From the NCBI GenBank assembly GCA_005239175.1, contig SOPS01000001.1:310001-374000 (forward strand): a stretch of 64,000 nucleotides of DNA, written 5' to 3'. Origin of the DNA: a halophilic archaeon SHRA6. GTDB lineage: Archaea; Halobacteriota; Halobacteria; Halobacteriales; Haloferacaceae. The position numbers and the translations under genes were made by a program. Positions 53,770 through 60,574 of the stretch are shown here, one piece after another; within the stretch, counting starts at the first letter, position 1; each line of letters starts with the position of its first letter. The notes under the pieces were generated by a model. The model was given only the letters and a program-made list of their open reading frames with translations. It had not been told where the DNA came from and did not search any database.

Positions 53770-55083
53770 TCAGCGGTCTGGGGTCTGGCGATCGTACGCC
53801 CCCTCCTTCCGCAGCCGTCCGGCCCGTTCGAGCACCGCCGGGGTCCGACAGATTCCAGGCTCGCCAGCGGCCTGCGGCACGACGCAGTTATTACAGTTCT
53901 CACAGACGACAGCGGTATCTCCGTCGGCGTCTGCGGCGAGCAGACGGGCGGGTAGCTCCGGTTCGGCGTAGAACGGCCGTCCAAGCCCAACCATGTCGCA
54001 ATCAGTCCCCAGGAGTCGATCGATCGTCCCACGCGTCCGGATCCCGCCCTCTGCGAGGACAGGCATATCGACCTGGCGGCGCACCCGACGACACAGTCCA
54101 GCGTTCCACGCGGGCTCAAAGTCGTAAACGAATGACTCCACACGATTTGCGGCAGCGACAAGTGCGGCTCGCAGCCGTCCGCCGAAGGCGTCGGCGTACC
54201 CCGCCTCGAAGCGATCGTCGCGCCACCCTCGGCCCGGATACTCGCCTTTGATGATACTCATATCCCAAAAGACCGAGCCCGTGACCGGGACAACCGCGTC
54301 GTAGCCGATCGCGTCGAGCCGCCCACAGATGCCGATCGCCGCGGCAGCGTCGAGGCGGCGACGGATGATGGGCGGGGCAGCTTCCTCGGCAGGGACCTTT
54401 GTCATGATTGGGACCGATCCGGCCTGCGATCGGATCTCGTCGTAAACGAGTTCAAGGAACCGAACACCGTCGGCAAACTCGTCGTCGCGGCGGTTGTAAA
54501 ACGGCGAGAGGAACTGGTGAATGATCCCCATGTTCGCGCCAGCGAGGTGGATAATATCGTAGCCGGCGTCGACCGCATAGCCGGCTGCACGGCCGAAATC
54601 CGCCGCCAGTTCGTAAACCTCGGCAGTCGTCATGACGTGTGGATCGTAGCTGAGAAATCCCGTCTTTGCGATCGCCCGCAGTAGTGCCGGCGGCTCTGAG
54701 ACTGCAAGCTGAGAGAGCTCGGGGGTACGCTCGCGGAAGCCCGCGTGCCAGGTCTCCATGCTCCGCAGCCCGCCGTGTTCGAGTTGGATTGCGATTGACG
54801 CGCCGTGGTCGTGGATCCGATCGGTGAGCGTCTGCAGGTCCGCAACGAAGTCTGGATCGTCAACGTAGGTCATTCCCGGCGCGGCACAGCCGCCAGGCGA
54901 GCGGACGATTGTCGCACCCTGACAGACCAGCCCCGCGCCGGCGGCCGCCGCTGGCTCGAGGTCGGCGATGAGGGTCTCGATCGTGTCTGGCCCGTTGCCC
55001 GCACATTCTAGGAGTGGGGCACGATACAGCCGATTTCGGACCGTGTGGCCGCCGATATCGATCGGCTGGTGCAGCGTCGCCAT
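53770..55083 (-). CDS. Old Yellow Enzyme-type NADH:flavin oxidoreductase
   Basis: A 437-residue FMN enzyme. The N-terminal barrel has RNRLYRAPLLECAG, AGLVCQGATIV and the QLEHGGLRS segment; the C-terminal part has MVGLGRPFYAEPELP and a four-cysteine cluster motif (CENCNNC near residue 400 and a later C in GICRTP) that would bind a 4Fe-4S cluster, as in 2,4-dienoyl-CoA or enoate reductases. There is no separate NADPH domain, so it is shorter than the bacterial dienoyl-CoA reductase. It is divergent from the aspartoacylase-like gene (54 bp apart). Confidence 0.88.
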   Translation of the reverse strand: MATLHQPIDIGGHTVRNRLYRAPLLECAGNGPDTIETLIADLEPAAAAGAGLVCQGATIVRSPGGCAAPGMTYVDDPDFVADLQTLTDRIHDHGASIAIQLEHGGLRSMETWHAGFRERTPELSQLAVSEPPALLRAIAKTGFLSYDPHVMTTAEVYELAADFGRAAGYAVDAGYDIIHLAGANMGIIHQFLSPFYNRRDDEFADGVRFLELVYDEIRSQAGSVPIMTKVPAEEAAPPIIRRRLDAAAAIGICGRLDAIGYDAVVPVTGSVFWDMSIIKGEYPGRGWRDDRFEAGYADAFGGRLRAALVAAANRVESFVYDFEPAWNAGLCRRVRRQVDMPVLAEGGIRTRGTIDRLLGTDCDMVGLGRPFYAEPELPARLLAADADGDTAVVCENCNNCVVPQAAGEPGICRTPAVLERAGRLRKEGAYDRQTPDR

Positions 55084-55137
55084 CGACCGGATTTACAGCG
55101 GCCATACGTTTATCCGTTATTCGTCCGAGAGCCCGGT

Positions 55138-56166
55138 ATGGCGAATCAAGCGCCGTTCCGCTACGACGCGGAGGTTGATCCCGGCGATACCCGACACGTT
55201 CGGTGTGAGATCAGCGAAACGTACCTCGGCGATCCGATCGAAATCCCTGTAACGATTATCAACGGCGAACACGACGGGCCAGTTGTCTACATTTCTGCGG
55301 CGTTACACGGCGACGAACTCAACGGAGTGAAGGTCGTCCAGGAAGTCGCAGACCGGTACGAACCGACAGACATCCATGGGACGCTCGTGTGCCTGCACGT
55401 CTGTAACGTCCCCGGCTACCTCGCCCAACAGCGCTACATTCCGATCTACGATCTGGATTTGAACCGATCGTTCCCCGGAAAGGCCGGCGCGAACACCGCA
55501 GAACGGATGGCAAACGCGCTCTACTCAACGTTCATTTCCCAGTGTGATCTCGGAATCGACCTGCACACCTCGACGCGAAATCGGACGACAATGTATCACG
55601 TCCGCGCAGACATGGAGAACCCAGCCGTTGAGCGGCTGTCGCGATCGTTCGGCTCGAACCTCGTCCTCTCTGGAGAGGCGGACGGATCGAGTCTGCGATC
55701 AGTCGCCACAAATGACGGAATCCCCACGATCACCGTCGAGATGGGGCGGGCCCACCGGTTCCAGCCGGCGTTGATCGATCGCGCACTGGCAGGGATCGAA
55801 AGCGTGTTTGCAGAGTACGAAATCGTTCCCGAGGCGACTGTCTCGTGGCCCGGCTGGACGAAGATCATCAATTCGTCCGACGAGAAGACGTGGCTCCGCG
55901 CGGACACCGGCGGACTCGTAGAGATGACCTACGAGCACCCACTCGTCTACCAAGGGGAGACGATCTGCCGGATTACGAATCATTTCAAGACCCGCGAGAA
56001 AGTCGTCACCGCGCCATTCACCGGCCTCATCGTCGGAGTGTTACAGAACCCGGTCGCGGCACCGGGGCACCCGCTCTGTCACTTCGTGAGCGTGGACGAG
56101 ACGACCGCCGCCGAAATCGAACGCGAGATCGAATCCGGCGAGTTCTCCGAGGACGCGTGGATCTAG
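55138..56166 (+). CDS. Succinylglutamate desuccinylase/aspartoacylase-family zinc hydrolase
   Basis: A 342-residue M14-like hydrolase starting at 55138 (MANQAPF). The zinc motif is H57-G-D-E60 (LHGDELNG), with a second His in GIDLHTST and catalytic acid in VEMGRAHRF. Relatives cleave N-acyl amino acids or small amide-bound acyl groups. The C-terminal 60 residues form the beta domain. A TATA-like box (cgtttatccg, near 55107-55116) lies about 22-31 nt upstream in the short divergent gap. Confidence 0.88.
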   Translation: MANQAPFRYDAEVDPGDTRHVRCEISETYLGDPIEIPVTIINGEHDGPVVYISAALHGDELNGVKVVQEVADRYEPTDIHGTLVCLHVCNVPGYLAQQRYIPIYDLDLNRSFPGKAGANTAERMANALYSTFISQCDLGIDLHTSTRNRTTMYHVRADMENPAVERLSRSFGSNLVLSGEADGSSLRSVATNDGIPTITVEMGRAHRFQPALIDRALAGIESVFAEYEIVPEATVSWPGWTKIINSSDEKTWLRADTGGLVEMTYEHPLVYQGETICRITNHFKTREKVVTAPFTGLIVGVLQNPVAAPGHPLCHFVSVDETTAAEIEREIESGEFSEDAWI

Positions 56167-57352: not shown

Positions 57353-57412
57353 TCGTATCAGAAGTCACGAGTGGCAGTCGTATCAGAAGTCACGAGTGGC
57401 AGTCGTATCAGA
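57353..57412. repeat. 25-bp tandem array overlapping the SDR stop codon
   Basis: Two complete 25-bp units (57353-57377, 57378-57402) and 10 bases of a third (57403-57412), core tcgtatcagaagtcacgag. The third, partial copy contains the stop codon of the SDR gene on the minus strand; the copies lie downstream of it. As with the VOC gene, the array begins at the gene end. Confidence 0.85.
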
Positions 57413-58247
57413 ACCCGCCTTCGCGATCGAACATCTCCGCCGAGAGCGGTGCAGGATCACCCTCGGTGACGTTGTACCGCGAAAAATCAGTCACACCGGC
57501 GGCCTCGAGGATGTCTTCGACGTACTCGGCGTTGCCAGTGTACTCCGCGGGGTCCTTCGAGAGCATCGTAAGCACCGCGTCAGAGACGATTTCGGGCGTT
57601 CGCCAGTCGTCTTCGGTTCCCAGCCCGAAGTACCGCGTGGCGCGGGTGTCGATCGCTGTCTTCGGCCAGAAGGTGTTACAGCCGATGTCATGCGCTGCGA
57701 GCTCGTCGGCCAACGAGAGCGTGAGAAATGACATCCCGAGCTTCGACCAGGCGTAGGGGGCCAATCCCGGCGCGCGATCGACCGTCACCGGCGGCGCGTT
57801 CGTCAAAATCCAGCCCTCGTCGGAATCGGTCAGGTGCGGGATAAATGCCCGGGAAACGAGGTACGTGCCGCGGACGTTGACATCGGTAAGCAGATCGAAG
57901 CGCTTCGGCGGAAGGTCTGCGACGTTCGCAAGCTGGATGGCACTCGCGTTGTTGATGACGATGTCGACACCGCCAAACCGCTCGATCGTCTGCTCGGCGG
58001 CCGTCTCTACCGCCTCTGGATCGCGGACATCCAGTTGAACTGCAAGCGACTCAACGCCGCGCTCCTCACAGGCGGCGGCTGTCTTGTGAATCGTCCCCTC
58101 GAGATCGCTGTCGGTGTCGTCGACAGTCTTGCCGGTCGAGACAACGTTGCACCCAGCTTCTGCGAGCGCGAGGGCAATCGATTTGCCGATGCCGCGGGTG
58201 GTACCCGTAATAAATGCCGTACGACCTGTGAGATCCGGTGTGTCCAT
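57408..58247 (-). CDS. Short-chain dehydrogenase/reductase (HSDL2-like)
   Basis: A 279-residue SDR starting at 58247 (MDTPDLTGRTAFITG). Motifs: TGTTRGIG (cofactor), NNAS (near residue 95) and catalytic YAWSK near 165. The extra region NTFWPKTAIDTRATRY and its C-terminal end resemble HSDL2-like SDRs. NADP(H)-linked oxidoreductase of unknown substrate. The stop codon lies inside a short tandem repeat. Confidence 0.9.
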   Translation of the reverse strand: MDTPDLTGRTAFITGTTRGIGKSIALALAEAGCNVVSTGKTVDDTDSDLEGTIHKTAAACEERGVESLAVQLDVRDPEAVETAAEQTIERFGGVDIVINNASAIQLANVADLPPKRFDLLTDVNVRGTYLVSRAFIPHLTDSDEGWILTNAPPVTVDRAPGLAPYAWSKLGMSFLTLSLADELAAHDIGCNTFWPKTAIDTRATRYFGLGTEDDWRTPEIVSDAVLTMLSKDPAEYTGNAEYVEDILEAAGVTDFSRYNVTEGDPAPLSAEMFDREGGF

Positions 58248-58400
58248 GGGCCCACCACGATGGCCGATGTAAAAACTGTACGGGTGTGGATTGTTTATTA
58301 CATTTCGTCGGGTGTGGGTAGTACATCCGTTCGATCGTTCCATACCGAGCGACAGTGGATACCAGATATAAGTGGCTACTCGTGAAAGCGGGATGCATAG

Positions 58401-59360
58401 ATGTGTTCGCGGCTCAACGCTGATCCAGAATCGATACGGCAAACGATCGATTCGGTCACGTTACCAGCCTGGTTCGAGCCGGTGTTCGATCGATACGAAC
58501 GAACGGTTGGGGACCGCGATCGATTACTCTGGAAGTGGCTGTACCACATTATCCCGACTTTTCAGCTTTCGTCAGTATCGGAGAGATACGCCGAGTCCGC
58601 ACGGAACGCGAACTTCGGGATGTCTGTATACATGACGATTCTCGATGATATCACCGAACGACATTGCAATCGGCCCCTGTTTGAGGAAGGAAGGCAGATT
58701 CCGTTTTCGAACACTCCCGCTCGGACATCGACCGACGACACCGAGAGTGAAGTCCTCGCACTGCTCGATCGCGTATGGGAGCAAACCGAGTCGTTCCTCA
58801 CAGAGGGCCCGCGGGCAGATGAGTTCCGTGAGATTCTGGAGTTCGACCTTCGACAGTCACTCAACACGATGGAGTATACCCGGCTCGTAAGCGCTGATCC
58901 ACGGATCGCAAGCCCTCAATCGATCGATCGCCACGACGTGTACAACATGCTGTTGTTCATCTACACGGACATTGATCTCGCGTTCTCGCCGGGGTTCGAT
59001 CGAGACGAGCTTGCGGCGTTTCGAGATCTGGTGTGGGACGCACAACGGCTCGCGCGAATCAGCAACTGGGTGACGACATGGGAACGAGAGGTTCGTGAGG
59101 GCGATTACACGTCGAAGGTGGTGCTGCGCGCGATCGAACGAGAGGTCGTACCGATCGAAACGCTTGAGAAGGCCCCACAGGAGGCTATCGAACGCATCCG
59201 TAAATCGGACATCGAGTCCGAACTGCTCGCCGAGTGGGATCGTCGGTACGACACACTTCGATCGAGCGAACCCACCGTATCGACGGTCGATACAGCAGCG
59301 TTCATTGAGGGAATGCGGTACATCCGGGCGGTCGATCAGGCGCTAGAAGGACAGAAGTGA
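58401..59360 (+). CDS. Putative class I terpene synthase
   Basis: A 319-residue, mostly alpha-helical protein without a named close relative recognised by me. The class I terpenoid cyclase elements are nevertheless complete: an aspartate-rich D82-D-x-x-E86 (LDDITERH), an NSE/DTE-type motif N222-x-x-x-T226-x-x-x-E230 (NWVTTWERE), and an Arg (R177) 45 residues before N222, matching the pyrophosphate-sensor position; RRY (281-283) and MRY (305-307) could serve as the C-terminal RY. The expected job is cyclising or ionising an isoprenyl diphosphate. A TATA-like gatataagt lies near 58363-58371, giving a short leader. A PAS histidine kinase follows on the same strand. Confidence 0.7.
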   Translation: MCSRLNADPESIRQTIDSVTLPAWFEPVFDRYERTVGDRDRLLWKWLYHIIPTFQLSSVSERYAESARNANFGMSVYMTILDDITERHCNRPLFEEGRQIPFSNTPARTSTDDTESEVLALLDRVWEQTESFLTEGPRADEFREILEFDLRQSLNTMEYTRLVSADPRIASPQSIDRHDVYNMLLFIYTDIDLAFSPGFDRDELAAFRDLVWDAQRLARISNWVTTWEREVREGDYTSKVVLRAIEREVVPIETLEKAPQEAIERIRKSDIESELLAEWDRRYDTLRSSEPTVSTVDTAAFIEGMRYIRAVDQALEGQK

Positions 59361-59542: not shown

Positions 59543-60574
59543 ATGCCGGGGGAGAATCGGAACGTATACCGAGACGTTTTCCAGTCGATTCAAAACCCCG
59601 CATTGATCATCGATCCGAACTTTGTCGTTCAGGATGCAAATACCGCCGCGGTTACGTTTCTCGATTATCCCACAAAAGAGGCGATATGTGGGACCTCAGT
59701 TGCGTCGATGCTCTACGATCCAGACGTGATAGAGGAGGTCAGTGAGGCGATTACTTCCGGAGAGCCGTGGGAAGGACGAACCGAACTCGTGACCCACGAC
59801 GGAGAGGTTATTGCTGGACGCGGATCCGCGGTGCCGATCACCGACAATGGGGAACTTATCTGTATCGCTGGGCTGTTCGTCGATCGAACGAGCCACGAGC
59901 GGTACACCCGATCGCTCAATATTTTAAACCGCGTGCTGCGGCACAATATCCGAAACGAGGTCAACATCATTCAGGGAAACCTGAGTATGATTGACGAGGA
60001 ATGCCTCTCGGAGCCAGACATCGCCCGGCTCAGATCGGTGAAAAAACGGTTGAATACGATCGTCGACCGCGCGCATACCGCCCGGCGGTTAGAGGAGCTA
60101 CTGGATTTCAAAGACGACCAAATCGAGGCCACAGTTCGGATCGACGAACTGCTCTGTGAGGCGATCGCTGAAGCCGCCGCTGAGTATCCATCGGCACGGT
60201 TCGTGTTCCCAGAATCGTTTGGGGCACGCTACGCGACCGCAAACCGCACAGCGGTGCGGGCATTCGAGGCAGTGTTAGAAAACGCCGTCGAACACAACGA
60301 CGCCGAAGAGCCGACCGTCTGGATCGATATCACCGAAACAGACGATTCGGTCACCGTAGAAATTGAAGACAACGGTCCGGGGATCGAGCCCGAACGGGAG
60401 GATATCGTGTTCGGCCGCGAGGAGACTGACCAACTCAACCACGGCGACGGGATTAGCCTGTTTTTTGTCGATCAACTATTCAGGATATACGGCGGCAGCG
60501 TCCGGGTCGAAGAACGCGAGGAAGGCGGTGCGCGATTTTGTCTGCGGTTTCCAAAATCAGGAGACGCCGAGTAG
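59543..60574 (+). CDS. PAS-domain sensor histidine kinase
   Basis: A 343-residue kinase. Residues about 8-115 form a PAS domain, followed by a HisKA-like dimerisation helix with the phospho-acceptor H134 (LRHNIRNEVN), and a HATPase domain with N-box VLENAVEHND, G1 DNGPGI and GDGISLFFVDQL. There is no membrane helix, so it is cytoplasmic. No response regulator gene is nearby. The typical haloarchaeal N-box is intact. Confidence 0.9.
   Translation: MPGENRNVYRDVFQSIQNPALIIDPNFVVQDANTAAVTFLDYPTKEAICGTSVASMLYDPDVIEEVSEAITSGEPWEGRTELVTHDGEVIAGRGSAVPITDNGELICIAGLFVDRTSHERYTRSLNILNRVLRHNIRNEVNIIQGNLSMIDEECLSEPDIARLRSVKKRLNTIVDRAHTARRLEELLDFKDDQIEATVRIDELLCEAIAEAAAEYPSARFVFPESFGARYATANRTAVRAFEAVLENAVEHNDAEEPTVWIDITETDDSVTVEIEDNGPGIEPEREDIVFGREETDQLNHGDGISLFFVDQLFRIYGGSVRVEEREEGGARFCLRFPKSGDAE

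Follow-up and report, generated by a model that had tools for sequence, protein, structure and literature searches.

A divergent candidate class I terpene synthase family of haloarchaea in the recurrent company of sensory and regulatory genes

Class I terpene synthases have few sequence features in common, two of which are the DDxxD/E and NSE/DTE motifs, and the coordination of the substrate diphosphate by these enzymes involves basic residues as well (PMC10563020). Bacterial-type representatives with known structures, such as pentalenene synthase (1PS1), Sat1646 (7E4N) and Stt4548 (7E4M), belong to the family PF19086. Terpenoid biosynthesis in archaea is the topic of a preprint (Samusevich et al., bioRxiv 10.1101/2024.01.29.577750) that is known here through its citation in PMC12797696, and haloarchaeal 'terpene clusters' have been reported from genome mining; in the passages of the latter report that were consulted, the family considered below is not described as being among them (PMC8600319). 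Since archaeal terpene synthases are already the subject of a preprint, this family should be viewed as a variant and not as a new kind; judged by its motifs and homology, it is a predicted class I terpene synthase family whose association with sensory genes is unusual.

Haloarchaeal proteins with class I motifs are also encoded on plasmids of Actinarchaeum halophilum (L187:3494-4885) and Halocatena marina (L188:3467-4906). However, these synthases are Streptomyces-like (24-28% identity to pentalenene synthase), are extended at their N-termini, are followed by a polyprenyl synthetase gene, and fall outside the family studied here. They are annotated as 'hypothetical' or 'SRPBCC' proteins, and the same canonical Streptomyces-like type is present at three further sites in haloarchaeal genomes (G290:C3, G319:C28/C56).

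The window, i.e., the entire stretch of 64,000 nucleotides from the haloarchaeon SHRA6 that was analysed, contains the candidate gene at positions 58401..59360 of the plus strand. Starting with an ATG codon, it encodes a protein of 319 amino acids, the size of a single alpha-domain. This open reading frame and the residues D82, D83, E86, R177, N222, T226 and E230 were all found where a previous sequence-only reading of the DNA had placed them. A TATA-like element (AGATATAAG; 58364..58372, plus strand), recognised by direct reading of the DNA about 33 bases 5' of the ATG, would resemble the promoters of leaderless haloarchaeal transcripts. The nearest relative of the window protein is a homologue from Halalkalirubrum salinum (L032; 75% identity), and comparison of the two genes (dN 0.15, dS 0.84) reveals purifying selection. 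Together with the TATA-like element, this marks the window reading frame as a real, conserved protein-coding gene. An AlphaFold2 model computed from just these two sequences is all-helical, with a pLDDT of 41 that makes it uninformative about the fold. The divergently oriented gene for an SDR oxidoreductase (57408..58247, minus strand) adjoins the candidate gene only within the genus; it is probably unrelated, and we did not include it in the proposed system.

When the window protein alone was compared with PF19086 (Terpene_syn_C_2), it scored 15.8 bits, a value below the gathering cut-off of 23.7 bits, and single-sequence searches against NCBIfam and the PDB yielded nothing. Because these searches were weak, we built family profiles, one with 56 members (A1) and a broader one from 53 sequences (A3). 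PF19086 matched 32 of the 56 members of the former at E<0.01 (best value 1.5e-8), and it exceeded its cut-off in 50 of 394 haloarchaeal genomes, nearly always at loci of the window-gene family, and in none of 14 control genomes. The search against the terpene synthase HMM that had been suggested as a check thus gave a divided answer, with the window protein itself under the cut-off and many of its relatives over it. In the PDB, all matches of profile A3 were terpene synthases, with weak E-values of 0.068 to 1.1, while profile A1 retrieved Sat1646 first and cytochrome b562 next.

As a reference, we assembled a profile of 15 canonical class I terpene synthases, made up of pentalenene synthase (a sequence identical to that of 1PS1) and further enzymes collected from annotated plasmids with it as the query. 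Alignment of the 56-member profile to this reference with hhalign gave a probability of 89% and an E-value of 2.3e-6 over 219 columns. The score of this match (52.4) can be compared with maxima of 27.5 among 100 column shuffles and 38.0 among 100 block shuffles of the 56-member profile, and with 14.8 for its reversal. In this alignment, D82-D83 fall on D80-D81 of pentalenene synthase and N222-T226-R229-E230 on its N219-S223-K226-E227. As far as homology and motif conservation go, the designation as a divergent candidate class I terpene synthase, made originally from the window letters, is supported: it now draws on a profile-profile match, on motifs in register, on PF19086 calls for relatives and on conserved metal-binding residues.

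The conservation of these residues was counted over 96 family members, some of them just 18-20% identical to the window protein. The first metal motif, D82-D83-x-x-E86 (58644..58658, plus strand), aligns with the DDLFD sequence of pentalenene synthase. Position 83 is an aspartate in all 96 proteins, position 82 is an aspartate in 91 and an asparagine in five, and position 86 is occupied by glutamate (72/96) or aspartate (24/96) and by no other residue; hence, the motif occurs as DDxxE (72/96), DDxxD (19/96) or NDxxD (5/96). The second motif, N222-x3-T226-x2-R229-E230 (59064..59090, plus strand), is of the NSE/DTE type. Both N222 and E230 are invariant (96/96), and with threonine at position 226 in 94 proteins and serine in two, its forms are NxxxTxxxE (94/96) and NxxxSxxxE (2/96). 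The basic residue ahead of the final glutamate, which corresponds to the lysine K226 of pentalenene synthase, is an arginine in 94 members and a lysine in two. Poor conservation of D82, D83, N222 and E230 among homologues had been named beforehand as an outcome that would speak against a terpene synthase; all four positions held up over the 96 members.

Two other marks to which the initial reading had drawn attention fared less well. R177 (58929..58931, plus strand) is located 45 residues before N222, where the diphosphate-sensor arginine would be expected (about 46 residues ahead of the NSE motif). Aligned with an RR pair of pentalenene synthase, it is indeed present in the window protein, but only 39 of the 96 homologues have an arginine at this position. 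The late RY pairs R282-Y283 and R306-Y307 both occur in the window protein as well; however, they are not conserved across the family, and at positions 306-307 arginine is found in 17 of the 96 proteins, with E and T the commonest residues. Due to this poor conservation, we discarded the late RY pairs as evidence for the family and give R177 little weight. In the 15-enzyme reference set, on the other hand, the C-terminal RY is (nearly) invariant; this pair is a typical feature of the bacterial enzymes rather than a definitive one of class I.

The family possesses a signature block of its own, Q-x-x-A-R-I-S/G-N-W-x-x-T-W-E-R-E-x-x-E-G-D (Q215..D235; 59043..59105, plus strand), in which W227 and D235 are invariant (96/96) and R219 (90/96), W223 (90/96) and E233 (94/96) are nearly so. 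At W223, a tryptophan replaces the aspartate of the usual 'ND' that follows the metal-binding asparagine. Collectively, the family shares with the bacterial-type PF19086 enzymes the order, spacing and identity of the metal motifs, the basic residue before the final glutamate, its size and helical make-up, and profile homology. It differs from them in overall identity (about 10-12%), in having 'NW' in place of 'ND' and threonine in place of serine, in lacking a conserved sensor arginine and C-terminal RY pair, and in its own invariant W46, D192, W227 and D235; R39 is another invariant mark peculiar to the family. The small clade to which the window protein belongs deviates from the rest of the family at K71, G239 and H312.

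Taken as a whole, we consider it likely that the window protein is a divergent single-domain archaeal class I terpene synthase, and one that is probably tied to signal transduction. We infer its catalysis, substrate, product and direction of control. By homology, D82, D83 and E86 together with N222, T226 and E230 would bind three Mg2+ ions, and R229 and, in the window protein, R177 would hold the diphosphate of farnesyl diphosphate (FPP), geranylgeranyl diphosphate (GGPP) or a C25 homologue. A Mg2+-dependent ionisation of the prenyl diphosphate would then be followed by cyclisation or capture, and the released product would be a hydrocarbon or an alcohol with a cyclised or rearranged skeleton. 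Of these diphosphates, FPP and GGPP would be supplied by the two prenyl diphosphate synthases of the PF00348 type that the genome encodes. Speaking against this reading are the PF19086 score of the window protein below the cut-off, the poorly conserved sensor arginine, the missing C-terminal RY pair of the bacterial enzymes and the lack of a conserved tailoring gene in the neighbourhood.

A variant of this chemistry, in which the fold and metal site were kept and cyclisation was lost, would produce a linear allylic alcohol of the linalool or geranyllinalool type or would amount to mere ionisation and hydrolysis. Several observations would suit a non-cyclising enzyme: the family retains its metal ligands but conserves neither the sensor arginine nor the RY pair, the NSE motif carries a tryptophan for its aspartate in 90 of the 96 proteins, and the family genes lack a conserved neighbour for a tailoring enzyme (P450, methyltransferase). 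Nevertheless, nothing in the sequences points to a loss of cyclisation as such, and the ionisation chemistry would still be that of a class I terpene synthase. We hold this variant to be unlikely.

Directly downstream of the candidate gene lies the gene for a PAS-HisKA-like-HATPase histidine kinase (59543..60574, plus strand; 343 amino acids; Pfam PAS and HATPase_c). Among 394 haloarchaeal genomes, all kinases with at least 42% identity to it (42-81%) adjoin a member of the synthase family (genomes G006, G163, G165, G248 and G297), and more adjacent pairs are found at 36-45% identity (G043, G044, G164 and two further genomes of the genus Salinigranum). The order of the two genes varies, with co-oriented, divergent and convergent arrangements; other kinase matches within the same genome reach at best 30% identity. 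At 35-40% identity, members of this kinase group also sit away from a synthase gene, so that the link is not an exclusive one. The window kinase is not a random neighbour of the synthase gene, and the suggestion that the kinase next door could be its regulator has gained from this repeated adjacency in several genera. Separately, we noted a decayed synthase fragment with a stop codon beside a fragment of the same type of kinase (G042:C36; L093:8097-8372), which looks as if both genes were being lost together.

Other branches of the family keep other company. In one clade, 25 members are found near PAS-GAF-BAT-HTH_10 regulators, often together with a HalOD1 protein, and in a third clade eight members lie directly 5' of a gene for a winged-helix-type regulator; on one Halorussus plasmid, the synthase and regulator genes share four bases. 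When these three partner labels were placed on the family tree, three changes were needed in total versus a mean of 16 after shuffling; hence, the clades keep their regulator partners. About half of the loci, whole clades included, have no such regulator neighbour. In haloarchaea, Bat sits beside the bop/brp genes, and the BAT-type regulators near the 25 family members recall this arrangement, except that their neighbour is a terpene synthase gene instead of opsin or phytoene synthase genes. The expression or activity of the synthase is probably tied to signalling, in the case of the window gene through the PAS histidine kinase encoded next to it and elsewhere through BAT-HTH_10 or winged-helix regulators.

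The genome that contains the window carries a second copy of the family, 33% identical to the window protein. This paralogue (L038:8434-9948, plus strand; at G000:C2 near 1073311-1074276) is a single open reading frame of 505 amino acids that joins a receiver domain (E-value 8.3e-17; its characteristic D, D, T and K are present) and a HalX domain (8.1e-7) to a terpene synthase domain, and it passes the PF19086 cut-off (23.9-24.7 bits versus 23.7). The fusion is a single case, and most family members have no fused domain; it is also the sole hint at phosphotransfer to a partner that would act on the synthase or its gene. Several homologues are preceded by long open frames that gave the appearance of further fusions; we attribute them to frame noise in GC-rich DNA, and only that at L038 is real.

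Could the synthase fold have been recruited as a sensor or regulatory domain that takes up an isoprenoid diphosphate as its input, or delivers a two-component output, without turnover? The receiver-HalX-synthase protein would fit such a role, as would the recurrent presence of PAS kinases, BAT-HTH_10 regulators, HalOD1 or winged-helix genes near the family members. However, a domain that merely binds its ligand would not need the Mg2+ ligands, all of which are kept over 96 sequences, and most members stand alone and unfused. We regard a role without turnover as improbable.

Prenyl diphosphate synthases, phytoene/squalene synthases and terpene synthases adopt the same isoprenoid synthase fold, and haloarchaea use the former two groups heavily. 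On these grounds, the window protein might be a relative of those enzymes in lipid or carotenoid synthesis, a reading that we judge to be very improbable. Its 56-member profile showed no homology with hhalign to the GGPP-synthase-type protein (PF00348; E 0.77, 18 columns) or to the phytoene-synthase-type protein (PF00494; E 0.16, 35 columns) encoded separately in the same genome, and its second motif is an N-T-E motif and not a second aspartate-rich one. Hardly credible is a coincidental motif match in an unrelated all-helical protein: the single-sequence searches were indeed weak, but the shuffling and reversal controls, the PF19086 calls over the cut-off and the invariant motif residues contradict it.

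The favoured candidate class I terpene synthases are widespread. With the window protein as the query, homologues were detected in 50 of the 171 genomes of its taxonomic family, and the 56-member profile found the family in 121 of 394 haloarchaeal species and 40 of 86 genera; members are also present in other classes of the same phylum, including methanogens. A scan of viral contigs for relatives of the window protein found none. On annotated haloarchaeal plasmids, six of six homologues are labelled 'hypothetical protein'. About a third of the sampled haloarchaeal species therefore carry a gene of an almost unannotated family, and its homology and regulator company suggest that many salt-loving archaea make a terpene under the control of signals. 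If the family makes terpenes, archaea would have native terpenoids other than their lipids and carotenoids, and the frequent company of sensor genes, together with the one receiver-synthase fusion, turns stimulus and product into directly testable questions in a tractable haloarchaeon. More tentatively, and with less than even confidence, we suggest that the Halobacteriota (haloarchaea and some methanogens) possess an old terpene synthase lineage distinct from enzymes recently imported from bacteria, that PAS kinases, BAT regulators or a fused receiver switch the output of this lineage, and that its terpenoid acts as a signal or as a product of stress.

Several minor observations were made along the way. 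The Methanosarcina-type homologues (L147:7968-8915, L151-L155), with 18-20% identity to the window protein, retain the DDxxD and NxxxTxxxE motifs, but they carry additional residues behind the first of these and have no C-terminal block. One genome encodes two family members in tandem (G341:C14; L160:6551-8933). Cobalamin genes near one family clade look like plain synteny inside one genus and were set aside. On a Halobellus limi plasmid (L180:6991-9280), genes for a SAM-dependent methyltransferase and a prenyltransferase/squalene oxidase repeat protein are positioned just 3' of the terpene synthase gene, and in Micromonospora (L184) a prenyltransferase/squalene oxidase repeat protein likewise follows a Sat1646-like gene. 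Elsewhere in the window (53770-56166), the gene for an OYE-type flavin oxidoreductase is oriented divergently from that of an AstE/AspA-type (DoeB-like) deacylase, an arrangement of ordinary metabolism.
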